From the NCBI GenBank assembly GCA_016930575.1, contig JAFGGL010000003.1, positions 1 through 64,000 on the forward strand: a DNA stretch of 64,000 nt, written 5' to 3'. Shown here in pieces: positions 1,257 to 13,563 of this stretch. Under the pieces are notes generated by a model, which searched no databases, was not told the origin of the DNA, and was given only the letters and a program-made list of their open reading frames with translations. Numbering within the stretch: position 1 is the stretch's first letter; each line of letters opens with the position of its first letter. The position numbers and the translations under genes are program-made. Source of the DNA: Clostridiales bacterium (GTDB lineage: Bacteria > Bacillota > Clostridia > Christensenellales > Aristaeellaceae).

Positions 1257-2342
1257 ATGAATAATTTCCCGTTTTTTGGCCCCCTGGGCGGCATTGCGCT
1301 GCGGCGGAACGCGCAGTCGTTTTCCGTATGCGCGGAAAATCCCACCGGCGAAAAGGGCAAGGGCGGCATGGCGGAGCTTACGGACGGCGTATCCGGCGCC
1401 GCCGCGCGCGACCTTGGGCGCGGCTGGAAGGTCAACCCCTACCTGCGCATTCCCGCCGGCGAAACCGCGACCCTGATGGACGCTACAGGCCAGGGCAGTA
1501 TCGACCAGATCTGGCTCACCGTAAGCCGCCCGTGGCGAAACGGCATCCTCCGCTTTTACTGGGACGGCGCCGATACCCCCGCCGTGGAGTGCCCTGTGGG
1601 CGACTTTTTCTTAAGCGGCTGGAACGAATATACGCCCGTGCGCTCGCTTCCCGTATGCGTCAACCCGCACAACGGCTTCAACTGCTACTGGCCGATGCCG
1701 TTTAAAAAGCGCGCGCGCGTCACCTTTGAAAATCGCAGCGAGGAACGCTGCATCCTCTATTACCAGATGAATTACTCGCTTTATACCCTGCCGGAAGAAG
1801 CGCTGTACTTCTGCGCGCAGTTCCGCCGCAGGAACCCCCTGCCCTACAAGGAAGTCTATACGATTTTGGACGGCGTCACGGGCAAGGGCCACTTCGCGGG
1901 CACCTATATGGCCTGGGGCGTGAACAACTGCGGCTGGTGGGGCGAGGGCGAGATCAAGTTCTACATCGACGGCGACAGGGAATTCCCCACCATCTGCGGC
2001 ACGGGCACCGAGGATTACTTCGGCGGCGCGTACAACTTCGAGAACACCAAGACCCACGAATACGAGGAATTTTCCACGCCGTATTCGGGGCTTTGCCAGG
2101 TCGTCCGCCCCGACGGGCTGTATCGTTCCCAGACGCGCTTCGGCCTCTACCGCTTCCACCTGACCGATCCGGTGTGTTTCGCGCAGAACCTGCGCGTCAC
2201 CATCCAGGCGCTGGGCTGGCGTTCGGGCGGCCGCTACCTGCCCCAGCAGGACGACATCGCCTCCGTCGCCTTCTGGTATCAGGACGACCCCGCGCCTGCG
2301 CTGCCAACACTTCCCACCATCGACGACATGGAGATCATCTAG
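1257..2342 (+). CDS. GH172 (DUF2961) glycoside hydrolase
   Basis: This 361-residue protein matches the DUF2961 family, now classed as GH172. Characterised members act on furanosides (difructose dianhydride I synthase/hydrolase, D-arabinofuranosidases). The diagnostic stretch ICGTGTEDYFGG, with an acidic residue in the presumed active site, is at about residues 244-255, and the length is normal for the family. There is no signal peptide, so action is presumably cytoplasmic on imported oligosaccharides. It starts at an ATG 6 bases after GGAGGC and is followed 14 bases later by the GH38 gene. The substrate is not deducible; pairing with mannosidases suggests mixed mannose/furanose glycans. Confidence 0.88.
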   Translation: MNNFPFFGPLGGIALRRNAQSFSVCAENPTGEKGKGGMAELTDGVSGAAARDLGRGWKVNPYLRIPAGETATLMDATGQGSIDQIWLTVSRPWRNGILRFYWDGADTPAVECPVGDFFLSGWNEYTPVRSLPVCVNPHNGFNCYWPMPFKKRARVTFENRSEERCILYYQMNYSLYTLPEEALYFCAQFRRRNPLPYKEVYTILDGVTGKGHFAGTYMAWGVNNCGWWGEGEIKFYIDGDREFPTICGTGTEDYFGGAYNFENTKTHEYEEFSTPYSGLCQVVRPDGLYRSQTRFGLYRFHLTDPVCFAQNLRVTIQALGWRSGGRYLPQQDDIASVAFWYQDDPAPALPTLPTIDDMEII

Positions 2343-2356
2343 CAGGAGTATTGACC

Positions 2357-5134
2357 ATGCAAAAACGACTGGAACAGCTGAAAAAGCAAACGGGAAACCA
2401 ATACTGGGCGGAACGTATCGTAAGCGAACTGACGTATTTGCGCAACCTGCTGGGAGACGTCGGCGCGCTGGCCGCGTCGGTCGGACGCCTGGAAACGCAG
2501 TACAGGGAAACGGGCGCGATCACCAAACAGGCGGCGCTTGCGGAGGAAGCGGCGCTCGCCGGGTTCGGCGATCAGGCCAAGAGATTGTCGCTTGTCTGCG
2601 CGGCGCACGCGCACATCGACATGAACTGGATGTGGTCCATGCCCGAGACCGTGAATGTAACGATCGACACCTTCCAGACCATGCTCGATTTAATGGAGGA
2701 ATACCCCGCGTTCACCTTCACGCAGTCGCAGGCGTCCACCTACCAGATCGTCGAGCAATTCGCCCCGTCGATGCTGGAACCCATCAAGCGGCGCGTGCGC
2801 GAGGGCCGCTGGGAGGTCGCCGCCACGCACTGGGTGGAGCCGGACAAGAACATGATTTCCGCCGAATCCATGGCGCGGCACCTGCTGTGCACCAAGCGAT
2901 ATCTTTCCAAACTGCTGGATATCCCCCCCGATTCCCTGCAGTTGGATTACGAGCCGGACACCTTCGGCCATCCCACGGGCGTGCCCGAGGTCCTGAGCCA
3001 CGCGGGGGTGAAGTACATGTACCACTGCCGCGGCAACGAGGAGGAGGAGATATACCGCTTCCGCGCGCCCTCGGGCGCGGAGGTGCTAACCTACCGCGAA
3101 CCCAACTGGTACAACAACGAGATCGAACACAGGATGACCGCGTTCCTGCCGGCGTTTTGCAAACGCAACCATGTAAAGGGCGCGCTGAAGGTCTACGGCG
3201 TGGGCGACCACGGCGGCGGGCCCACGCGGCGCGATATCGAACGTTTGCTGGACATGCAGTCCTGGCCGCTGCTGCCGGAGATCCGCTTCGGGCGCATCGA
3301 CGAGTATTTCCGTTCCATAGAATCAAATAAGGACAAGTTCCCCGTGGTCGGCCGAGAGCTCAACTTCGTGTTCACGGGCTGCTATACCTCGCAGTCGCGC
3401 ATCAAGCGCGCCAACCGCATCGGCGAGGACCACCTCTACGACGCCGAGGCGCTGCACTGTTTTTCGCGGCTGGCGGGCGCCGAGCCCAGGCCGCCGGCGG
3501 ACTTCACGAAAGCCTGGCGGAACGTGCTGTTCAACCACTTCCACGATATCCTCCCCGGCTCCGGCGTGCGCGACACGCGCGAGTACGCCCTGGGCCGCTT
3601 CCAGGAGGCGGACAGCATCGCCACCGGCAGCATGAACCGCGCGATGCAGGCGATCGCCGCCACGGTGGATACCTCCGCGCTGGGCATGCCCGCGGGCGCG
3701 CAGAACAGCCCCGCCGAAGGCGCGGGCGCGGGGCACGGCGTTGTGGCCGGGGCGAAGCTGGAGTACAGGGGCTTTACCCAGCACTTCAACGTCAGCGATA
3801 TCTCCCGCGGCGGCGGCGACATCCGCGCGTTTGTGCTGTTCAACACCGCGCAGTACCCCCGCAGGGAGCGCGTGCAGCTCACCCTGTGGGACTGGGATCT
3901 GCCGCTTCTGGAAACGGCTGTATATGCCGCGGACAAGACGGAACTGCCCTTTGACGTGGTCGAAGACGACCAGCGCTATTGGGGGCACAGGTACGCCGTC
4001 ATCGCCTTTACGGCGGAAGCGCCGCCGCTGGGCTACGCCACGGTATATATCGCGCGGGCGAAGCAGTCGCGGCCCGCGCCCTATCAGGCAAACGACCGCG
4101 TTCATCACCGGAACAGGATGAACCCCGTGCTGGAGAACGGCAGTCTGCGTGCGGAGTTCGACCGCCGTACGCTTGCGTTGATTTCACTCACCGACAAACG
4201 CGCGGGGAAAGAACTGCTCGGCGCGCCCGCGCAGTTCCGGTTGATACGGGAAGAAAACGTCGGCTTCTTCTCCGCGTGGGAGGTCGGGCGCTACGGCACA
4301 ATCACAAACGTGCAGGAGGAGAACTTCGTGCACCTGAAGGAAGAGGAAACGGACGCGCTGTTTCCCCGCCTCAGGTACGAGCTTTCCTTCGGGCGTTCCG
4401 CGCTGCATGTGCGCGTGACGCTGGATAACGATATGCTGCGTTTTTCCGTCGAGCTCAACTGGCGCGAGGAAAGCGCGGAGGAACAGCCCGTGCCGCAATT
4501 GCAGTTCACCGTGCCCTACGCTTACAAGGCCGGGAGCATCCGCTGCGACGCGGCGGTCACGGCCGTAGACAGGAAGGAACTAAACCACGACATCCCCGCG
4601 CACCTGTACGCGGCGCCCGTGCATCCGGGCGGCGGCCTGATGCTGACGACCGACTGCAAATACGGCTACCGCGCCGTGGACAATGCCCTCAGCATCAGCC
4701 TGATCCGCTCCTCGCACTCGCCGGACAAGCTGCCCGAGACCGGCGTGCATACGATGGAACTCGGCATCGCAGCCGTGCCCGACTTCAGGGAAGAAACGCT
4801 GCATAGCCGCGCGTTTTGCTTCTCTCATCCGGTCTACGCGCGCTCCGCGCCCGTTCACAGGGGCAGCCTGCCGCCCGTGGCCAGCCTGCTGAACATCAAG
4901 GGCGGCGCGCGCGTCACCGCGGTGAAGCCCGCCGAAAACGGTACGGGGATCCTTGTGCGCATGGTGCAAAACGGCGGCAGGGAAGAAGCCGTCGCCCTGT
5001 CGCCCGCCGCCGCAGCAGAGACGACCGATATCCTGGAAAACGCGCAAGCGCCCCTGCCTGTCCAAAACGGGACGGCGGAAGTGAAGCTCAAGCCGCATAC
5101 GCTGCACAGCGTATGCATCACGCAAAAGGAGTAG
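2357..5134 (+). CDS. Alpha-mannosidase, GH38 family
   Basis: A 925-residue GH38 enzyme that releases mannose from alpha-mannosides. The Zn-binding/active-site motif HAHIDMNWMW is at residues 84-93, and the nucleophile motif DYEPDTFGH gives Asp201. It has the family's three-helix middle domain and a long beta-sandwich C-terminus. I chose the ATG at 2357 because AGGAG lies 9 bases upstream and because the open frame before it overlaps the GH172 gene. Its short N-terminus distinguishes it from the divergent GH38 at 1-1049, so the locus has two different GH38 subtypes. No secretion signal is seen. It lies directly upstream of an aldose epimerase (3-bp gap). Confidence 0.93.
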   Translation: MQKRLEQLKKQTGNQYWAERIVSELTYLRNLLGDVGALAASVGRLETQYRETGAITKQAALAEEAALAGFGDQAKRLSLVCAAHAHIDMNWMWSMPETVNVTIDTFQTMLDLMEEYPAFTFTQSQASTYQIVEQFAPSMLEPIKRRVREGRWEVAATHWVEPDKNMISAESMARHLLCTKRYLSKLLDIPPDSLQLDYEPDTFGHPTGVPEVLSHAGVKYMYHCRGNEEEEIYRFRAPSGAEVLTYREPNWYNNEIEHRMTAFLPAFCKRNHVKGALKVYGVGDHGGGPTRRDIERLLDMQSWPLLPEIRFGRIDEYFRSIESNKDKFPVVGRELNFVFTGCYTSQSRIKRANRIGEDHLYDAEALHCFSRLAGAEPRPPADFTKAWRNVLFNHFHDILPGSGVRDTREYALGRFQEADSIATGSMNRAMQAIAATVDTSALGMPAGAQNSPAEGAGAGHGVVAGAKLEYRGFTQHFNVSDISRGGGDIRAFVLFNTAQYPRRERVQLTLWDWDLPLLETAVYAADKTELPFDVVEDDQRYWGHRYAVIAFTAEAPPLGYATVYIARAKQSRPAPYQANDRVHHRNRMNPVLENGSLRAEFDRRTLALISLTDKRAGKELLGAPAQFRLIREENVGFFSAWEVGRYGTITNVQEENFVHLKEEETDALFPRLRYELSFGRSALHVRVTLDNDMLRFSVELNWREESAEEQPVPQLQFTVPYAYKAGSIRCDAAVTAVDRKELNHDIPAHLYAAPVHPGGGLMLTTDCKYGYRAVDNALSISLIRSSHSPDKLPETGVHTMELGIAAVPDFREETLHSRAFCFSHPVYARSAPVHRGSLPPVASLLNIKGGARVTAVKPAENGTGILVRMVQNGGREEAVALSPAAAAETTDILENAQAPLPVQNGTAEVKLKPHTLHSVCITQKE

Positions 5135-5137
5135 ACG

Positions 5138-6010
5138 ATGTTCCAGACGATCGCAAACGACGCGCTGAGCGTAACCGTCAACGAACGGGGCGCGGAGCTG
5201 TGGTCCGTGCGCGGGGAGACCGAATACCTCTGGCAGGGCGACCCGGCCGTCTGGGCGGACCGCGCGCCGACCATCTTCCCCTTCGTCGCGCGGCTTTACG
5301 GCGGCAAGTACACCGTGAACGGCGAACCCTACCGCCTGCCCATCCACGGCTTCGCGGTCCATTGCCTGTTTACGGCCGTCGAAAAAAGCCGGAACGCCGT
5401 CACGCTGGAGCTGAAGGATACCAAACTCACCCGCGCGCTGTACCCCTGGCCGTTTAGCTTCCGGGTGCGCTACGCGCTGTCCGGCAGCCGGCTGGACATC
5501 GGCTACAGCGTGGAAAACACGGGGGAGGAGACCATGTTCTTCGGCCTCGGCGGGCATCCGGGCTTCAACGTGCCGCTGGAGGACGGGCTTGCCTTTACCG
5601 ATTACGAACTGCGCTTCCAAGCGCCCTGCGCGCCCGAACGCGTGCAGTTCACGCCGGATTGCTTCATCACCGGCGAAACAAAGCCTTTTCCGCTTGAAAA
5701 CGGGGACACGCTGCGCCTGAAACACGATTCGTTTGACGACGACGCCGTCGTGCTTACGAGCGCGGCGAATGCCGTCACCCTGCAAACGAACAAGGGCAGG
5801 CGCGGCGTGCGCGTAAGCTATCCGCAGATGCCCTACCTGGGAATCTGGCACAGGCCGAAGACCGCCGCGCCCTACGTATGCATCGAGCCGTGGAGTTCCC
5901 TGCCCGCCAGGGACGGCGAGGTGACCGAATTTATCGGCCATCCCGGCCTTATCTCCCTGCCCGCGGGCGAAACCTATACGAACGCCTGGAGTATCGAAAT
6001 CCTGCAATGA
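5138..6010 (+). CDS. Aldose 1-epimerase family protein (LacX-like)
   Basis: A 290-residue galactose-mutarotase-fold protein. It carries PFVARLYGG near the N-terminus, a histidine in PIHGFA and a second in GGHPGFNVPL, which correspond to the His pair of aldose 1-epimerases. The likely role is to interconvert the anomers of the hexose released by the upstream glycosidases, since retaining enzymes release one anomer while the isomerase may need the other. LacX-like members are divergent from GalM and their substrates are often unknown. It is tightly coupled to the GH38 gene (3-bp gap) and followed by the isomerase. Confidence 0.85.
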   Translation: MFQTIANDALSVTVNERGAELWSVRGETEYLWQGDPAVWADRAPTIFPFVARLYGGKYTVNGEPYRLPIHGFAVHCLFTAVEKSRNAVTLELKDTKLTRALYPWPFSFRVRYALSGSRLDIGYSVENTGEETMFFGLGGHPGFNVPLEDGLAFTDYELRFQAPCAPERVQFTPDCFITGETKPFPLENGDTLRLKHDSFDDDAVVLTSAANAVTLQTNKGRRGVRVSYPQMPYLGIWHRPKTAAPYVCIEPWSSLPARDGEVTEFIGHPGLISLPAGETYTNAWSIEILQ

Positions 6011-6036
6011 CCGTTTCCCAGAAAGGAGGACCTGCT

Positions 6037-6555
6037 ATGGACGACAGGCAGTATGCCAAAACCAAGGCGCTGAAGATGCTCAAAGCCGCCGGCATCGCGC
6101 TGACAAAAACGGAGGAAGAAAACCTGGAGATCGCCGGTTTCGGCCTGAACGACTTGCTTTCGACGGGGCTTGAGCTGATCACCTACGTAAACACCGAGCG
6201 TTGCTGCGCCAAGGAACTGGTGCTCCTGCCGGGCCAGACCTGCCCCGAGCACCGCCATCCGCCCGGCTTCGGCGGCCCCGGCAAGGAGGAGACCTTCCGC
6301 TGCCGCGCGGGCGAGGTGTACCTGTACGTGCCGGGTAAAGCCACTCCTGCGCCAAAGGCAAAGCCGCCCGCGGGGGACGAAGCGCACTACACCGTGCGCC
6401 GCGAGATCGTGCTGCGCCCCGGCGAGCAGTACACGCTCATGCCCGACACGCTCCACTGGTTCCAGGGCGGGCCGCAGGGCGCGATCGTATCCGAATTCTC
6501 CACCGCCAGCCACGACGATACCGACGTGTTCACCCATCCCGGCATCATCCGATAG
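6037..6555 (+). CDS. D-lyxose/D-mannose ketol-isomerase, cupin type
   Basis: A 172-residue cupin resembling D-lyxose isomerases, which also convert D-mannose to D-fructose. Metal ligands are visible as EHRHPP (His72, His74), Glu84/85 in KEETF, and His140 in TLHWF. It is shorter than E. coli YdaE (about 227 residues), as in the compact clostridial forms. The ATG at 6037 follows a strong AAAGGAGGA site; the longer open frame upstream lies inside the epimerase gene. In this operon it would turn mannose from the two mannosidases into fructose for the PfkB kinase immediately downstream. Mannose as the physiological substrate is inferred from context. Confidence 0.82.
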   Translation: MDDRQYAKTKALKMLKAAGIALTKTEEENLEIAGFGLNDLLSTGLELITYVNTERCCAKELVLLPGQTCPEHRHPPGFGGPGKEETFRCRAGEVYLYVPGKATPAPKAKPPAGDEAHYTVRREIVLRPGEQYTLMPDTLHWFQGGPQGAIVSEFSTASHDDTDVFTHPGIIR

Positions 6556-6569
6556 GGGGAGGGGAGTAC

Positions 6570-7595
6570 ATGAACAGGTGTGGGATCATCGTCAGCGGCG
6601 TCGCGACGATCGACCGTATCATGATCGTGGACCACTACCCCAGGGAGGGCACCCTGATCGATATCGGCGAGCCCGCCATCTCCACGGGCGGGGCGCTTTG
6701 CAACGTGCTGCTGGATATCCATAAGCTCGATCCCTCCATCCCGCTGTACGCCGTGGGCGTCATCGGAAAAGACGAGTTGGGAGACAGGACCTACGCCGCG
6801 CTGCAGCGCGCCAAACACGCCAACCTGTCGGGCGTCGTGCGCGCGGGCAGGGCCTGCTACACCGACGTGTACGAAAGCAAGGAGACCAACCAGCGCACGT
6901 TCTTCCACCAGCGCGGCGCAAACCGGCTGCTGGACGTGGACCATTACGATCTGGAATTTTCCACGGCGAAGATACTCTCCGTGGGCTACGTGATGCTGCT
7001 GGACGCGCTGGACAGCCCCGACGCGGAGTACGGCACGCGCATGGCGCGGCTGCTCTGCGAGGCGCGGAGGCTCGGCATGGAAACCTGCATCGACGTCGTC
7101 AGCGTGCAGTCCGCGAAATTCCGCGAGACCGCCGTGCCCGCGCTCCGGCACGCCACCTACTGCGTGATCAACGAAACTGAAGCCCAGGAGATCACCGGCG
7201 TCATCCTGCGCGACGACGCGGGAGGACTTGTGGAGGAAAACGCCGCTCCCGCGCTCCGGTCGCTGCTCAAAGAGGGCGTGGACAAATGGGCGGTCATCCA
7301 CACGCCCGAGGCTTCCTTCGGCATGGACAAGGCGGGAGCGTTTTACCGCGAACAGGGGGCCAAGCTTGCCCACGGATTTATCAAGGGCACGGTCGGCGCT
7401 GGCGATGCGTTCTGCGCCGGTGTGCTGTGCGTGGCGCACGGCGGCGGCACATTGAAGCAGGCGCTGCGCGCGGGCAACGCGTCGGCCTGCTCGTCGCTGC
7501 GGCTGACGGGCGCCACGGAGGGCGTGCTGCCGCTGCCCGAAGCCCTGCGGCTGTACGACCAGCTCCACCATTTATGCGAACCTGAGGACGGGTGA
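6570..7595 (+). CDS. PfkB-family sugar kinase (probable fructokinase)
   Basis: A 341-residue ribokinase-fold (PfkB) kinase. The N-terminal glycine-rich strand (GVATIDRI) and the C-terminal signature GTVGAGDAFCAG with catalytic Asp279 are intact. PfkB enzymes phosphorylate sugars or nucleosides using ATP. Given the preceding mannose/fructose isomerase and the following mannitol-1-phosphate dehydrogenase homologue, fructose to fructose-6-phosphate is the simplest assignment, but tagatose, ribulose or another keto-sugar cannot be excluded. GGGGGAGGGGAG lies before the ATG. The stop is 7 bases before the next gene. Confidence 0.85.
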   Translation: MNRCGIIVSGVATIDRIMIVDHYPREGTLIDIGEPAISTGGALCNVLLDIHKLDPSIPLYAVGVIGKDELGDRTYAALQRAKHANLSGVVRAGRACYTDVYESKETNQRTFFHQRGANRLLDVDHYDLEFSTAKILSVGYVMLLDALDSPDAEYGTRMARLLCEARRLGMETCIDVVSVQSAKFRETAVPALRHATYCVINETEAQEITGVILRDDAGGLVEENAAPALRSLLKEGVDKWAVIHTPEASFGMDKAGAFYREQGAKLAHGFIKGTVGAGDAFCAGVLCVAHGGGTLKQALRAGNASACSSLRLTGATEGVLPLPEALRLYDQLHHLCEPEDG

Positions 7596-7602
7596 GGAAA
7601 GC

Positions 7603-8718
7603 ATGCGAAACGACTACGCGCTGATGATCGGCGCAGGCAACATCGGGCGCGGGTTCATCGGCCAGCTGTTCGGCGAGTGGGGGTTTCCCGTGGTGTTTTC
7701 CGACGTGGACCCAACGCTGATACGGCTGTTGAATCAATACCGCGAATACCCGGTCGTGCAGTTGTCCGGGGAGACGGAGACGACCTATACCGTTACAAAC
7801 GCAAGCGCCGTGGACGGCGCGGATCTGGACGCCGTGGCGCGGGCCGTGGCCGGGGCGAAGATCGCAGCGGTCTCGGTGGGCGCGAAGGCGCTCCGGTCCG
7901 TCGCGCCGGCGCTGGCCAAGGGTATCGCGCTGCGCTGCGAACAGGGCGCGCCGCCTTTGAATATCCTGATCTGCGAAAACCTGCTGGACGCCCAAAACCA
8001 CATGACCGGCCTGCTGCGGCCGCTGCTGGACGATCAGGGCAGGGCGTACCTGTCCGCGCATATCGGGTTGATCGAGACCTCGGTCGGGCGCATGATTCCC
8101 GTGCAGACGGAGGAAATGCGCGCGCTGCACCCGCTGGCGGTATTCACCGAGGCGTACTGCGAGCTGCCCGCCGACAGGGCGGCCTTCAAAGGCGGCGTGC
8201 CGGACTACCCGCACCTGAAACCCTACGCGCCGTTCCCCTTCTACGTGCAGCGCAAGATGTTCGTGCACAACATGGGGCACTCCGCCGCGGCGTACCTGGG
8301 GATGCGCAAGGGGTATGCATTCATCTGGCAGGCCGTGGAGGATAAGGAAATCCGCGATACCGTGAAGGCCGCGATGAAGGAAAGCTGCGCCGCGCTGTCC
8401 CGCGCCTGGGACGAGGATATCGCGGAGCTCAACGCCCACGCGGAGGGCCTGTTCCGGCGCTTTTCAAACCGCAAACTCGGCGACACCGTACAGCGCGTCG
8501 GGCGCGACCTGCCCCGAAAGCTCGGCGACAACGAGCGCTTCTTCGGCGCGGCCGGGCTGTGCGAGCGGCAGGGCGTGGAATACCCGGCCATCCGCGCGTG
8601 CATCCGCGCGGCGCTGAACCTGGACGACGGCAAGGATATTTCGCTTCTTGAGCTTCGCGGCCTCGCAAACGCCGCGATACTATCCCATATCAAGGAAATT
8701 CCGGAGGATAAACGATGA
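7603..8718 (+). CDS. Mannitol-1-phosphate 5-dehydrogenase family protein
   Basis: A 371-residue NAD-dependent long-chain polyol dehydrogenase. It opens with the MtlD-like Rossmann motif IGAGNIGRGFIG and carries a VHNMGHSAAAYLG segment with the catalytic-region residues of the mannitol dehydrogenase family. MtlD interconverts fructose-6-phosphate and mannitol-1-phosphate, which would drain reducing power in an anaerobe. No mannitol PTS is nearby, so the physiological direction is unclear, and the enzyme may use another sugar phosphate made in this pathway. It overlaps the next gene by ATGA (8715-8718), indicating translational coupling. Confidence 0.8.
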   Translation: MRNDYALMIGAGNIGRGFIGQLFGEWGFPVVFSDVDPTLIRLLNQYREYPVVQLSGETETTYTVTNASAVDGADLDAVARAVAGAKIAAVSVGAKALRSVAPALAKGIALRCEQGAPPLNILICENLLDAQNHMTGLLRPLLDDQGRAYLSAHIGLIETSVGRMIPVQTEEMRALHPLAVFTEAYCELPADRAAFKGGVPDYPHLKPYAPFPFYVQRKMFVHNMGHSAAAYLGMRKGYAFIWQAVEDKEIRDTVKAAMKESCAALSRAWDEDIAELNAHAEGLFRRFSNRKLGDTVQRVGRDLPRKLGDNERFFGAAGLCERQGVEYPAIRACIRAALNLDDGKDISLLELRGLANAAILSHIKEIPEDKR

Positions 8719-10325
8719 ACACGCTTGGCTATGACTTCAAGGATAGCTGGATCACCCTTCACGGCCTCTCGTTCGCGCTGCGGCTTGGCACAACGGAGAA
8801 TATCTACGCGCCGGACGGCGCGAAGATCTCCGTGCTGCGGGACACCGACAGGATCTCCTACCGCGCGTCCGGCCTGCAGTGGGCCGGCGGCCAGAAGGCG
8901 GCGGAGGGGGAGATGGCCCTGTCCGTTTCTTACGACGGAAAGGGAACCTTTACCGTCACCGGCCACGCGGAACATACCGCGCAGCGCGGGCGCAGCCTGG
9001 TGCTGCTGGTGCGCGGGCTTCGGCTGCAGACGCTGATCGGCGACAGCGAAAACATGCCGGTCACCGAAGTCAGCAAGTTCAGGCATTCCCAGGCGTTTTC
9101 CTGGCCGGGGCGCACGGCCACCATGCCGCTGGTGTTTATGAACTGCGGGACCGCGCCTGAGGCTTTCGCCCTCTCCCGCGACAAACAGGTGCGACGCAAG
9201 GTGTTCGCCGCGCATTACGACCATATCCTCAGGGAACCCGTGCTGGTGCTTTCACATCAGGAGGACGCGCGCGTGAATACGAGGCGGCTGGAGCTTCCCC
9301 CGTGGGAGATCGGGCGCGGCGTGGCGCGCGCGGAGGCCGTCAAACGGCGGTTTGACGATCTGGAGAAGAATTTCGGCATGAAACCCTTTGAAAAACACCC
9401 CGAGCGGCAGTGGCTGAGCGATCTGAAGGCCGTCGTCAACCTGCACGGCGTGCATTGGACGGGGCACGTGTACAGGACCTACTTCCAGCAGGCGGAGGCT
9501 TTGCGAAAAGTTTGCGAAATCCTCCCCGGAAAGCACATTTTGGCGTTTCTGCCCGCGTGGGAAGGTCCATATTATCATCAGTCGCCGGAGATGCGGCCCT
9601 CGGAGGAGCTGGGAGGCGCGGGGGGGTTGAAAGCGCTTGTGAAAACCGCGCACGATCTGGGCGCGCGCATCATCCCGATGCTGGACGGGCCCAACCTCGC
9701 CGACGAGGCCTTTCTGCAAAGGCACGGTTTGATGGACGCGCGGCTGAAGTCGCCCGAAGGCGACCCGCGCATTCAGAACTGGGTGGACTGGAACGGCGAC
9801 CTCCTCTACGAGAAGATGGGCTGGCTCGTTAACTTCGGGCACCCGGGCTTCAACCGGAAGATGGTGGAGATCACAACGGATTTGATTTCGGCCTACGGCT
9901 TTGACGGCATCTTCCTGGACGGCGCCATCCGCTGGGAAAACTGCCCGGACTACTCGCCATACGAGGGCATGCGGGACTGGGCGCGCGCCGTGCAAAAGCG
10001 CTTCCCCGACGCGCTTTTGATGGGGGAGGACGGCTACGACCTTTTATGGAACGAGTTCGGGCTGTTCGCCACCTTCATGCAGCCGCTGGGGCTTGAAAAC
10101 GCCATGCTGCGCTATACGCGGCAGAGCTGGTACCTGGCCTATCCCGCGCCGGGCGGCAGCGGCGGCATCCACGAGCAGGCCTGGTACTCCGCCACGGCCG
10201 ACGGGAAGATGAAGGAGTATATCATCCCGACGGTGTCCATCGTGGGCGACACGCTGGAGAAACACTTTGACGAACTCAAGGCACAGCTTCAGGAGGCCGC
10301 GAAATGGGAGCTGAAAACGCGGTAA
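8715..10325 (+). CDS. Uncharacterised TIM-barrel protein, glycoside-hydrolase-like
   Basis: A 536-residue cytoplasmic protein that I cannot assign to a numbered family. The first ~200 residues look like a beta-sandwich. The C-terminal half looks like a (beta/alpha)8 barrel of the clan holding alpha-galactosidase-like enzymes: FDGIFLDGAIRW contains Asp397 and Asp402 at the expected end of a barrel strand, and LLMGEDGYD contains Glu438 in the next. These could be nucleophile and acid/base, but this is inference. It sits between the dehydrogenase (4-bp overlap) and the glycyl-radical activase (22-bp overlap), so it is part of the pathway. A DUF6259-like relationship is possible. Confidence 0.6.
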   Translation: MNTLGYDFKDSWITLHGLSFALRLGTTENIYAPDGAKISVLRDTDRISYRASGLQWAGGQKAAEGEMALSVSYDGKGTFTVTGHAEHTAQRGRSLVLLVRGLRLQTLIGDSENMPVTEVSKFRHSQAFSWPGRTATMPLVFMNCGTAPEAFALSRDKQVRRKVFAAHYDHILREPVLVLSHQEDARVNTRRLELPPWEIGRGVARAEAVKRRFDDLEKNFGMKPFEKHPERQWLSDLKAVVNLHGVHWTGHVYRTYFQQAEALRKVCEILPGKHILAFLPAWEGPYYHQSPEMRPSEELGGAGGLKALVKTAHDLGARIIPMLDGPNLADEAFLQRHGLMDARLKSPEGDPRIQNWVDWNGDLLYEKMGWLVNFGHPGFNRKMVEITTDLISAYGFDGIFLDGAIRWENCPDYSPYEGMRDWARAVQKRFPDALLMGEDGYDLLWNEFGLFATFMQPLGLENAMLRYTRQSWYLAYPAPGGSGGIHEQAWYSATADGKMKEYIIPTVSIVGDTLEKHFDELKAQLQEAAKWELKTR

Positions 10326-11233
10326 CGCAACCGCTCGGCATCATCACAAACATCCAGCGCTTTTCCCTGCACGATGGGCCGGGCGTGCGCTCCACCGTGT
10401 TTTTCAAGGGCTGCCCGCTGAGGTGCCTGTGGTGCCACAATCCCGAGACCTACACGTTCCAGCCCGCGCTGTCACAGGACGCGCTGCGCTGCACCGCCTG
10501 CGGCGGCTGCGTTGCCGCCTGCCCGCAGGGTGCGCTTAAGCTCACGGAGTATGGCCTGCAATACAACGTCTCCCTGTGCATCCGCTGCTTTGCCTGCGCC
10601 GGGGAATGCCCTACAGGCGCGCTTTCGGTGCTCGGGCGGGAGGTGACAGCGGGCGACGTTCTCGGGGAGGTGCTGCCGGACAAGGGTATGTACGAGCGCA
10701 CGGGCGGGGGCGTCACGCTGTCCGGCGGGGAAGCCGCCGCGCAGCCGAAGTTCGCGCTGGCGCTTATTGACGCGCTGCACCAGCACGGGATCCGCGCGGC
10801 GCTTGACACCTGCGGTTACGCGGAAAGCGAAACCTTCCTCCGGCTCTGCCGCGAAGCCGATTTGATTTTGTTCGACCTCAAACACATCGATAATGCCGCG
10901 CATAAACGCCTGACGGGGAAGGATATGACGCTGATAAAGCGAAATTTCTTCCTGCTGTCCCGGGAGCAAATACCCGTCCAGGTACGCGTCCCCGTTATCC
11001 CCGGCCTCAACGATGACGATCAAACGCTTTCAGGCATCGCCGAATTGATTACAAAGAATCCGAAGGTAGACAGCATCGTCCTTTTGGGGTATCATCCTCT
11101 GGGCGGCGCGAAAGCGGCGGGACTGGATGAGGAGCGCCCGGCCCTGTCCGTGACGCCGCCAAGCAAAAAGCGCCTGGCCGATTTAGCCCGGACCATGGCC
11201 GCGCGCACCGGCCTTTCCTGCACATTCCGATAA
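10304..11233 (+). CDS. Glycyl-radical enzyme activating enzyme (radical SAM)
   Basis: A 309-residue radical SAM activase that installs the glycyl radical on the enzyme encoded just downstream. The SAM cluster motif CPLRCLWC gives Cys37, Cys41 and Cys44. An inserted double [4Fe-4S] ferredoxin region follows (CTACGGCVAACP and CIRCFACAGECP). This clustered-insert architecture is typical of activases for non-PFL glycyl radical enzymes; PFL activase lacks it. The GGEAAAQ stretch corresponds to the SAM-binding GGE motif. It overlaps the preceding gene by 22 bases and lies 15 bases before its partner. Oxygen-sensitive cytoplasmic action is expected. Confidence 0.93.
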   Translation: MGAENAVTQPLGIITNIQRFSLHDGPGVRSTVFFKGCPLRCLWCHNPETYTFQPALSQDALRCTACGGCVAACPQGALKLTEYGLQYNVSLCIRCFACAGECPTGALSVLGREVTAGDVLGEVLPDKGMYERTGGGVTLSGGEAAAQPKFALALIDALHQHGIRAALDTCGYAESETFLRLCREADLILFDLKHIDNAAHKRLTGKDMTLIKRNFFLLSREQIPVQVRVPVIPGLNDDDQTLSGIAELITKNPKVDSIVLLGYHPLGGAKAAGLDEERPALSVTPPSKKRLADLARTMAARTGLSCTFR

Positions 11234-11248
11234 AGCGAGGAATCCCCT

Positions 11249-13471
11249 ATGAGTATGCCAACTCTTGACGAACGGCTCCGCCATTTGATCCGCGAAAAAC
11301 ACAACAACACGCTGGAAAAGCAGAAGGCCGTCGGCTCCATGGATTTTGACGACACGGCACTGATTTTGCCGCCCGAAGAGAAGCGCAAGGTGGTCTCCAT
11401 CATGTCCGGTTCCGGCATGCCGATCAAGGACGTGATCTTCAACGACTTCGTTCCCGAGCCCAACCATCCAAACGGCGGGTATTACGGCCCGGTCGGCATC
11501 GGCTCCAATTTCCGTAAGTTTCTGCTGCACCACCCGCCGCACATCGACCCGATGTCGGCGCTGGCGGGGGCGTATATGGTGTCCTTCTATTCCTACCGCA
11601 AGGACGTCAACCCCGATCTGGATTATTCCGACCTGCATGAGATGCAGGAGAAGTACAAGCTTGTCACCGGCATCTTCGCCCCGGAGCACTTCTGTCAGGA
11701 TTTACAAATCGGGCTGGACCTGGGTTGGGACGGGCTCAGGAACAAGGTGCTCAAATACCGCGCGGTCCATGGCGAGGATAAATACCCGTTTTACGACGGG
11801 CTGCTGCTGATGATCGACGGCTTCCAGGGCTGGATTGAGAACAACGCGAAGCACGCGCTGAAACTAAGCGAGGCCGAGCCCGACCCGGAGATCGCCGCGC
11901 ACCTGAGACAGCTGCACGACATGAACATGCGCGTCGCGCACAAAAAGCCCGAGACCTTCCTGGAGGCCTGCCAGTTCATCCTTTGGTACCAGATGGGCGG
12001 CCGCTCCTTCAATTCCAGCGGCTCCCTGGGGCGGCTGGACGTGCTTCTTGAGCCTTACTATCAGCGAGACATTGCCGCGGGCGTTCTCACCGACGAGGAA
12101 GCCGTGTTCATTCTCGCCTGCCAACTGGTACGGGATACCGCTTATATCCAGTTGGGCGGCTACGACGAGCAGGGCAATGATACCACCAACCCCGTTTCCT
12201 TCCTCATCCTGGAGGCCGCGCGGCGGCTGAAGCTGCCCTCCAACCTCGGCGTGTGCGTGGGCAAGGGCGTCAACCGTGAGCTTTTACGCCGTTCGGTGGA
12301 GATGCAGTTTCAGGACAAGTGCGGCAACCCGCGCTTCGTGGGCGTCGACGCGCTGGTAGAAGGGTTTGCCAAAAACGAAGGCGTGACCCTCAAAGATGCG
12401 CGCGCGCGCACCAACGCGGGCTGTCACTGGATGGCGATTCCGGGGCGCGAGTATTCCCTGATGGATTGCGTGAAGATCAACTTCGCCGTGGTGCTGGAGA
12501 TCGCGCTCAAGGAAGCTGTGCAACGTTATGAAGCCCCTAGCATCGATCAGATTCTAGACGTGTACGAAACGCACCTGCGCCTTGCCGTGGAAACGCTGGC
12601 AAAGGGCTTTACCTTCAACTATGAAAACCAGATCCACAACTTCCCCGAGCTGCACCTGGACCTGATGAGCTACGGCCCGGTGGAGCTGGGGCTGGACGCT
12701 TCAAACGGCGGCGTGGAGAAGTACCTTTGGTGCATCGACGGCGCGGCGCTGGCCGTGGTGGCGGACAGCCTGGCCGCCATCGAGCGGCGCGTGCTCAAAG
12801 AGAAGCGCTACACCTACACCGAACTGATGCGTTTTCTGGAAACCGACTGGGCCGGTCCTGACGGCGAGAAAGCGCGGCTGTTTATGCAGAGCGTGGAGCG
12901 CTACGGCAAGGGCGGCACCCGCGCCGACGAGCTTGCCGTGCGCTTGTCTGAAATGTTTGTCAAGGCCGTCAAATCCGCGCGCACACCCAAGTACGGGTAC
13001 AGCATGATCCCGGGGCTTTTCTCCTGGGCCAACACGCTGGAGTTCGGCGAGCAGGTGGGCGCGACGGCCAACGGCCGCAAGGCGGGCAAGCCCATCTCCC
13101 ACGGCGCCAATCCAAACCCCGGCTTTCGCGCCGACGGCGCGGCGACCGCCATGTCCCACGCCATCGCTTCGGTGCAGTGCGGCTTGGGCAACACCGTGCC
13201 GATGCAGCTGGAGCTTGAGCCGTCCATCTCCGCAGATGAGGGCGGCGTCGAGGCCGTGATGGCGCTGATCGAGGACCACTTCGCCAAAGGCGGCACGCTG
13301 ATCAACCTCAACGTCATTGATGCCGATACCCTGCGCAGGGCGCACGAAAACCCCGAGCTCTTCCCCGAGCTAATTGTGCGCGTCACGGGCTTCTCGGCGT
13401 ATTTCAAAAGCCTGTCGCCGCCGTTCCGCCAGTTGGTGGTGGACCGGATCCTGGACAAGAGCGTTTCATAG
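11249..13471 (+). CDS. Glycyl radical enzyme of unknown reaction
   Basis: A 740-residue PFL-fold enzyme. The glycyl radical site is RVTGFSAYF near the C-terminus with Gly714, so the radical can form. The thiyl cysteine is Cys392 in NAGCHWMAIPG. In glycerol, choline, hydroxyproline and isethionate enzymes the loop is Gly-Cys-x-Glu; here Trp replaces that Glu, and it is not the Cys-Cys of PFL either. The enzyme is therefore unlikely to be a standard diol dehydratase or a pyruvate formate lyase. It is the last gene of a mannose/fructose/mannitol-phosphate operon, so a sugar-derived or anhydro-polyol phosphate substrate is plausible. The start at 11249 follows GCGAGGA; a second ATG six bases later is possible. 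Confidence 0.92.
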   Translation: MSMPTLDERLRHLIREKHNNTLEKQKAVGSMDFDDTALILPPEEKRKVVSIMSGSGMPIKDVIFNDFVPEPNHPNGGYYGPVGIGSNFRKFLLHHPPHIDPMSALAGAYMVSFYSYRKDVNPDLDYSDLHEMQEKYKLVTGIFAPEHFCQDLQIGLDLGWDGLRNKVLKYRAVHGEDKYPFYDGLLLMIDGFQGWIENNAKHALKLSEAEPDPEIAAHLRQLHDMNMRVAHKKPETFLEACQFILWYQMGGRSFNSSGSLGRLDVLLEPYYQRDIAAGVLTDEEAVFILACQLVRDTAYIQLGGYDEQGNDTTNPVSFLILEAARRLKLPSNLGVCVGKGVNRELLRRSVEMQFQDKCGNPRFVGVDALVEGFAKNEGVTLKDARARTNAGCHWMAIPGREYSLMDCVKINFAVVLEIALKEAVQRYEAPSIDQILDVYETHLRLAVETLAKGFTFNYENQIHNFPELHLDLMSYGPVELGLDASNGGVEKYLWCIDGAALAVVADSLAAIERRVLKEKRYTYTELMRFLETDWAGPDGEKARLFMQSVERYGKGGTRADELAVRLSEMFVKAVKSARTPKYGYSMIPGLFSWANTLEFGEQVGATANGRKAGKPISHGANPNPGFRADGAATAMSHAIASVQCGLGNTVPMQLELEPSISADEGGVEAVMALIEDHFAKGGTLINLNVIDADTLRRAHENPELFPELIVRVTGFSAYFKSLSPPFRQLVVDRILDKSVS

Positions 13472-13533: not shown

Positions 13534-13563
13534 TTTACAAAACCGATGCTCCTTGTGTATAAT
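13534..13563 (+). promoter_or_regulatory. SigA-type promoter for the LCP gene
   Basis: TTTACA (13534-13539), an 18-bp spacer and TATAAT (13558-13563) lie about 160 bases upstream of the 13726 start. The long 5' leader has no recognised motif. Confidence 0.6.

Follow-up and report, generated by a model that had tools for sequence, protein, structure and literature searches.

A widespread family of glycyl radical enzymes with tryptophan replacing the Cys-loop glutamate and a possible role in sugar metabolism

Glycyl radical enzymes (GREs) share an RVxG[FWY] radical site, a Cys in the middle of the protein and an activase encoded nearby (passages of PMC11528403), and a CxE motif on the Cys loop has been described for those that act as eliminases (passages of PMC8473560). 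The same passages of PMC8473560 present the isethionate sulfite-lyase IslA (7kq3) as keeping and requiring this CxE, and place its Trp374 in the vicinity of both the Gly loop and the catalytic Cys. YbiW and PflD are anhydrohexitol-phosphate lyases, the PflD substrate being phosphorylated and imported by the phosphotransferase system (PTS; passages of PMC12441222). Here, we analyze a stretch of 64,000 nucleotides (the window) at the start of contig JAFGGL010000003.1 from a Clostridiales bacterium, which codes for a GRE with Trp in the place of the CxE Glu, compare this enzyme with its relatives and tentatively propose a reaction for the family that they constitute.

The Cys-x-Trp family and its phyletic spread

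Judging from its sequence, the window open reading frame (ORF) belongs to the superfamily of GREs resembling pyruvate formate-lyase (PFL): it matches the PFL-like (PF02901, 5e-83, 280.3 bits) and Gly_radical (PF01228, 1.1e-13, 52.1 bits) models above their cut-offs and features the RVxG[FWY] site, the mid-protein Cys and the nearby activase. Its ATG start codon is preceded by GAGGA. The source assembly (95.2% complete, 4.97% contamination) has no other PFL-type GRE, the PF01228 and PF02901 searches each matching the window enzyme alone. An earlier note on this DNA had pointed to Cys392 in a GCHW loop, an RVTGF site and a Trp replacing the CxE Glu, and all of this is borne out. Its view that the radical machinery is intact agrees with the presence of the Gly loop, Cys392 and an activase with CxxxCxxC and Fer4 motifs. 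The GCHW loop has no second Cys of the kind found in the Cys–Cys pair of PFL.

Relatives were gathered without recourse to the Cys loop, by the patterns PDLVVRVTG and [FML][IV]PGxFSW[SA][NK] or by whole-protein similarity. Some GRE match (E up to 1e-10) was present in 35 of 60 related genomes, and 12 places in eight of the 60, the window included, matched at 39–100% identity (E ≤ 1.6e-150). Below these, the best of the long matches was 30% identical (7.5e-55) and shorter ones reached 34%, with the exception of one 182-codon fragment at 45%. Across the class, 28 of 391 genomes, the source genome included, had a match at E ≤ 1e-80. A pattern scan of one genome per species (84,980 species) recovered 443 relatives; the best 80 of these, which were kept (41–69% identity in the best segment), span the Chloroflexi, Ignavibacteria, Bacteroidota, Planctomycetes, Verrucomicrobia, Lentisphaerae, Armatimonadetes, Spirochaetes, Bathyarchaeota, Clostridia and others. 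Two annotated plasmid records yielded further members. L031 and L032 were left out as copies of L086 and L112, and collapsing on identical last 350 GRE residues brought 122 loci to 116 distinct members.

All 116 carry Cys392, Trp394 (as did all 92 of an earlier set), Pro398, Gly399, Glu401, Asp406, Tyr299, Phe591, Asn648 and Pro651. Gly714 is likewise universal, counting L174, in which the letters beside this Gly are unreadable, and His147 is found in 115 of 115. With such conservation Trp394 is neither a chance substitution nor a sequencing slip, and the window GRE is a member of a large, widespread and uncharacterized family, not an oddity. The residue between Cys and Trp varies: His in 77 members, Asn in 36, Ser in two and Gly in one. 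Among individual members, the Cys loop of L161 reads GCHWMCMPGLE; a chicken-gut genome (L031/L086/L176, G057:C13) has a 69%-identical GRE that lacks the first ~190 residues, with no activase relative in the stretch around it; and a LarA-like (lactate-racemase) gene directly follows a 67%-identical GRE (L042:4039-5349).

The 23 outside GREs used for comparison comprise PflD, YbiW, PflB, CutC, HypD, a Pdu-linked GRE, one from a Chloroflexota plasmid, one from Persicobacter and fifteen others. At Cys+2 they display Glu in 19 cases, Ser in three (the PFL type) and Trp in one (L022). A counterpart of His147 is present in 14 of the 23, of Asp406 in PflD and the Pdu-linked GRE only, and of Glu401 in none. 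In other uncharacterized GREs (L013, L015, L016, L017, L018 and L019) a Trp stands at Cys+1 with the Glu kept (ACWEF, GCWEV). The family forms a single clade both in a 75-row tree (52 members, support 100, on a long stem) and in a more careful 49-row tree (24 members, 100/100), each of which carries long-branch warnings.

Library searches likewise set the family apart. The window GRE reaches the cut-off of no NCBIfam family. The models of the GRE families CutC, HypD, HpfG, HpsG, HPAD, IAD and TIGR01774 gave at most 280.0 bits against cut-offs of at least 678.2, and the PFL model TIGR01255 was not reached (90.1 versus 994.2 bits). The best PDB sequence match is PflD at 189 bits, or 319.8 bits with the family profile (next match, 288). 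For an AlphaFold2 model of the window GRE (mean pLDDT 94.1, pTM 0.93), the highest Z among solved folds (37.7) belongs to PflD (8yjo, 8id0) and glycerol dehydratase (GD), followed by propanediol dehydratase (36.8–37.5), 2f3o and 8iof (both 36.7), CutC (36.0), HypD (35.4) and PFL (29.1); one PflD structure among the best has anhydromannitol-6-P bound. X-succinate synthases are weaker matches in both sequence and fold, and an accessory gene of theirs was recognized among none of the ten window genes scanned, the NCBIfam listing holding no model of their catalytic subunit. No characterized GCxW family appeared among the NCBIfam, PDB sequence or PDB fold matches, and the known GCHW family that the earlier note had allowed for did not come to light. 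Nor is a GCxW family reported in the titles and abstracts searched—weak evidence of absence, the motif being hardly word-searchable and most subscription papers falling outside the coverage—or in passages of PMC8473560, PMC11574389, PMC12441222 and PMC11528403.

A proposed reaction and its alternatives

His147, Cys392, Trp394, Glu401 and Asp406 of the window GRE align with His164, Cys433, Glu435, Thr442 and Asp447 of GD (1r8w, counted by hand). In GD, we take His164 and Asp447 to hold the vicinal diol hydroxyls, with the His protonating the leaving oxygen. Since this His/Asp pair of the polyol dehydratases is kept, a polyhydroxy substrate and a C–O elimination provide the simplest reading. The earlier note had held that the enzyme would not act by the diol-dehydratase scheme; the Glu base is indeed replaced, but with His147 and Asp406 matching the GD pair the claim was overstated, and elimination may still follow this scheme through another base. 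Glu401 adds an invariant carboxylate to the Cys loop. Together with Trp593 and Tyr299, Trp394 may offer a surface on which a sugar ring stacks, the pair Phe591 and Trp593 probably lying in the GRE pocket. As CxE, a defining feature of the GRE eliminases, gives way to CxW in 116/116 members, we do not file the family among them. We instead tentatively propose, as the likeliest reading but one still well short of established, a new GRE family of C–O-cleaving dehydratases or ring-opening lyases of an unphosphorylated hexose-type sugar.

Under this proposal, the neighboring activase would install the radical on Gly714, which would oxidize Cys392 to a thiyl radical that abstracts hydrogen from a sugar carbon bearing a hydroxyl. 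By analogy with our picture of GD, Asp406 and His147 would hold the vicinal hydroxyls and His147 would protonate the leaving oxygen, while Trp394 would stack on the sugar face in the spot taken elsewhere by the CxE Glu. In lieu of the missing base, Glu401 or the ring or anomeric oxygen of the sugar itself might supply the electron push. The product would be a keto-deoxy sugar or deoxy-lactone, handed to lineage-specific partners: in the window the cupin isomerase, PfkB kinase and mannitol-phosphate-type dehydrogenase, and elsewhere Gfo/Idh/MocA dehydrogenases, small cupins and phosphomannose-isomerase-like proteins.

To assess gene context, neighbors within 10 kb or to the contig end were counted at the 116 family loci (stretches of 3.1–22.2 kb, mean 15.7) and at 20 control loci of other GREs from related genomes (3.4–20 kb, mean 14.6). 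An activase relative is present at 88 of the 116, and at 58 of the 67 loci flanked by 3 kb or more on each side. In favor of the proposal are also the Gfo/Idh/MocA dehydrogenases near 43/116 members versus 1/20 control loci (p 0.004), the alpha-mannosidases of the small-cupin loci and the isomerase plus PfkB kinase beside the GRE both in the window and at L168 (see below). That the substrate would be a free sugar is suggested by the non-phosphorylating transporters, glycosidases and aldose–ketose isomerases of these contexts. The transporters recognized near members are all of non-phosphorylating types (ABC, SSF, SNF and RhaT). PTS families are absent from the 25 most frequent Pfam families of the 104 scanned neighbors (of 176 operon neighbors listed), rarer families lying outside that tally, and no sign of a PTS- or microcompartment-linked function was seen near members, where no search was aimed at either. 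For the window operon, the substrate would most likely be D-mannose or another monosaccharide freed by the operon glycosidases, and mannose would be the best single guess both here and for the Bacteroidota loci.

Several points weigh against this proposal. The very Glu that would deprotonate the hydroxyl is missing, and the reaction may not be an elimination at all; the pocket positions of the residues derive from alignment. The fold ranking lends weak support, rows within 1 Z being tied and CutC and HypD lying near, and neither tree puts the family beside PflD. The query genes of the context counts were chosen from family loci and the control was not blind. Mannose-type genes taken overall occur at 20/116 loci versus 1/20 in the control, which is not significant (p 0.31). 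Further, the activase alone is widely conserved and the other neighbors are lineage-specific, making a single substrate for all members doubtful.

Among the alternatives, the foremost, though unlikely, is a non-eliminating sugar radical enzyme (an epimerase, isomerase or C–C lyase), in which the thiyl would take a sugar hydrogen and the radical would be requenched or the chain break, with neither a leaving hydroxyl nor a Glu base. The complete loss of CxE agrees with it, in that the GRE families known to lack it (PFL, class III ribonucleotide reductase and the X-succinate synthases) do not act by diol elimination; residues 619–622 (GANP) also resemble PFL, not the eliminases, and isomerase-type genes occur among the neighbors. 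However, the His/Asp pair of the polyol C–O lyases persists throughout the family, no PFL-like second Cys exists, and the folds lie closer to the C–O lyases than to PFL.

Less probable is an oxidized sugar substrate, either a 3-keto sugar or a sugar acid, made by Gfo/Idh/MocA dehydrogenases, whose keto group would acidify the hydroxyl and render the Glu base dispensable. Besides the presence of this dehydrogenase family near 43/116 members, those checked singly resemble inositol, levoglucosan and glycoside 3-dehydrogenases, weakly and below the cut-offs, and four of them stand in a row in some Clostridia (L164, L165, L166 and L171). Against this, 73 of the 116 loci, the window among them, have none in the stretch.

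The earlier note had floated a 1,5-anhydrohexitol phosphate lyase, and a YbiW/PflD-kind enzyme acting on an anhydrohexitol- or hexitol-phosphate after the PfkB kinase would fit the standing of PflD as best PDB sequence match and tied best fold, as well as the PfkB and mannitol-1-phosphate dehydrogenase relatives of the window operon. We consider it improbable as stated: both YbiW and PflD keep CxE and fall outside the family clade, relatives of the window PfkB lie near only two of the 116 members (the window included), and the recognized transporters do not phosphorylate. Finally, a GRE that is no longer catalytic or has taken another role, as the absence of the Glu that its best-known relatives use in catalysis might hint, is highly improbable given Cys392 and Gly714 in every member, the frequent activase and the presence of the family in many phyla.

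Gene neighborhoods in the window and across the family

The window GRE is the last of nine tightly packed genes (1257–13471; Table 1), with intergenic gaps of −22 to +26 bp. The activase ends 15 bp upstream of it, scores 308.9 bits with TIGR02494 (cut-off 174.35) and has CxxxCxxC and two ferredoxin-type Cys motifs. The following gene begins 254 bp downstream of the GRE, with a promoter-like site (13534–13563) in between, such sites in the region being no more frequent than in shuffles (two found versus a mean of 2.8); the GRE is probably the last gene of its transcription unit. The sugar-metabolism setting suggested by the earlier note is supported by the operon genes, and of its more specific label, a mannose operon, part holds: a GH38 enzyme and a D-lyxose/D-mannose isomerase are present, but the nearest solved relative of the first gene is an exo-alpha-D-arabinofuranosidase (presumably of the family named GH172). 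We infer a mannan/D-arabinan operon instead of a purely mannose one. The arabinofuranosidase relative and the GH38 mannosidase side by side (1257–5134) suggest a D-arabinan/mannan (arabinomannan-type) substrate.

Table 1. Residues and motifs of the window GRE and genes of its operon, in window coordinates.
Feature	Position	Strand	Basis or remark
GRE, 740 aa	11249..13471	+	ORF; PFL-like and Gly_radical Pfam domains
Cys392-His393-Trp394, catalytic Cys and Trp replacing CxE Glu	12422..12430	+	within NAGCHWMAIPG; codons of Cys392 12422-12424, Trp394 12428-12430
Glycyl radical site RVTGF, Gly714	13379..13393	+	sequence motif; Gly714 codon 13388-13390
His147, aligned to GD His164	11687..11689	+	alignment to 1r8w
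Glu401 (aligned to GD Thr442) to Asp406 (aligned to GD Asp447)	12449..12466	+	alignment to 1r8w
Phe591 and Trp593, second aromatic pair typical of the family	13019..13027	+	Phe in 116/116, Trp in 113/116
Exo-alpha-D-arabinofuranosidase relative, first operon gene	1257..2342	+	8ic8 2e-123, 415 bits
GH38 alpha-mannosidase	2357..5134	+	GH38 N, middle and C domains
Aldose 1-epimerase-like protein	5138..6010	+	Aldose_epim 3.5e-29
D-lyxose/D-mannose ketol-isomerase (cupin)	6037..6555	+	7nzo 6e-63, 2y0o 6e-58; AGGAGG before start
PfkB-family sugar kinase	6570..7595	+	PfkB 5.1e-21
Mannitol-1-phosphate 5-dehydrogenase-like protein	7603..8718	+	Mannitol_dh domains; 3h2z 3.5e-56
536-aa orphan protein, overlapping activase start	8715..10325	+	ORF
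Radical SAM GRE-activating enzyme with ferredoxin-type cluster insert	10304..11233	+	TIGR02494, Radical_SAM, Fer4

The mannitol-1-phosphate 5-dehydrogenase-like protein is below the cut-off of every NCBIfam model listed. The 536-aa protein has no Pfam, NCBIfam or PDB match and no homologue near any of 92 GRE loci, and only its own copy was found among 291 genomes of the class; by eye alone, it resembles a TIM-barrel glycosidase. We rejected the window operon genes as universal partners of the family, the PfkB kinase and the isomerase recurring at L168 only and the mannitol-phosphate-type dehydrogenase near no other member examined. The genes after the GRE at L168, a locus far from the window in the tree, code for a Gfo/Idh/MocA dehydrogenase, a PfkB kinase, a D-lyxose isomerase (54% to that of the window) and a class II aldolase. 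As the window-type isomerase is common (50 of 291 class genomes), its co-occurrence with the GRE at these two loci is suggestive and not proof. Two ORF clusters (7 and 8) that overlap or flank the GRE on the other strand were discounted, by position only, as antisense artefacts.

Other lineages display partners of their own. A small cupin directly follows the GRE in eight Bacteroidota loci, with a ninth copy upstream of the GRE in the Clostridia-type L038, and a GH92 or GH47 alpha-mannosidase is found near six of these nine members versus none of the other 107. A model of the Bacteroidota cupin (pLDDT 79, six sequences) has a protein of unknown function as its nearest fold, followed by hydroxyanthranilate dioxygenase and several sugar 3,4-ketoisomerases; given how widespread the cupin fold is, we read the likeness to ketoisomerases as a weak hint. 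Plasmids of Flammeovirga kamogawensis and Persicobacter psychrovividus combine the GRE, activase and cupin with GH47, SusC/SusD-type genes and sodium symporters, to which the former adds a sulfatase and GH130 and the latter another annotated glycosidase. In seven Clostridia-type loci, the GRE precedes a phosphomannose-isomerase-like protein and a protein (cluster 18) that may be a two-domain cupin from its HxH...H pattern; the latter has no Pfam match and a sole, insignificant PDB match.

Alpha-L-fucosidase relatives lie within 10 kb of four members (L064, L067, L091 and L099, two of them Chloroflexi), so substrates may differ across the family. URO-D-like proteins (12/116 versus 0/20 in the control) and xylose-isomerase-like TIM barrels (9/116 versus 0/20) are not significantly enriched. 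The former are encoded near the GRE in the Ignavibacteria/Bacteroidetes-type loci L058, L065, L066, L067, L070, L081 and L095, directly 3' of it in six of the seven and, in several, ahead of a sugar ABC transporter. At L111:12552-17486, a single 1645-aa open frame joins RhaT transporter, GH92 and GH28 domains, either as a fusion or through an assembly error.

Relation to other glycyl radical enzymes

The one outside GRE with Trp at Cys+2, L022 (652-2811), has PCNW at the catalytic Cys. Relatives of it are present in four of 291 genomes (L242–L245), with a [PG]CNW loop and CNW in 5/5. The 49-row tree joins these with the main family (99/93) across a deep split and under a long-branch warning, and we regard the two as sisters only tentatively. 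In L022, Asp occupies the position of Glu401 and His that of Asp406. Two loci of this second family contain an SMP-30-type lactonase (recognized by Pfam at the first and by 54% similarity to it at the other), and one has a xylose-isomerase-like barrel and a URO-D-like protein, both of which have counterparts near main-family members. Separately, the gene row L246:4523-16298 contains a sugar kinase, an SMP-30-type lactonase, a Cys-x-Trp GRE, a second, CC-type PFL-like GRE, a radical SAM activase-like gene, an amidohydrolase and a GH43 gene.

Trp at Cys+2 may thus mark a larger, sugar-linked branch of the GREs. A bolder and rather improbable extension is that both families constitute a separate radical branch for cyclic sugars, in which a free aldopyranose would stack on the Trp and lose its anomeric hydrogen to the thiyl, and the 2-hydroxyl would leave with the ring oxygen giving the push supplied elsewhere by the CxE Glu. 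A 2-deoxy-aldonolactone would form directly, with no base. The lactonase genes near two members of the second family fit this and prove nothing; if true, it would amount to a base-free entry of mannose-type sugars into fermentation. A family that lacks the Glu in every member examined and keeps the diol-binding pair allows a direct test of the extent to which radical elimination depends on the base, made practical by the annotated loci of F. kamogawensis and P. psychrovividus. For gut and sediment anaerobes, it also points to an unrecognized anaerobic route for sugars of mannan- or arabinomannan-type glycans.

Among known systems, PFL resembles the family in having no Glu at Cys+2 and in its GANP stretch, and differs in its Cys–Cys pair, lower fold similarity (Z 29) and distinct branch. 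IslA also has a Trp near the catalytic Cys, but this is Trp374 and not the residue at Cys468+2. The B12-independent glycerol and 1,2-propanediol dehydratases (1r8w, 5i2g and 9rco) have the fold (Z 37–38) and the equivalents of His164 and Asp447 in common with it, and differ in Glu435 versus Trp394, Thr442 versus Glu401 and their small-diol substrates. PflD, the 1,5-anhydromannitol-6-phosphate lyase of E. coli, shares the fold, the PGRxYxLxD stretch after the Cys and the His/Asp pair, but has its own CxE, Thr at the Glu401 position and 25–29% identity, and lies outside the family clade.

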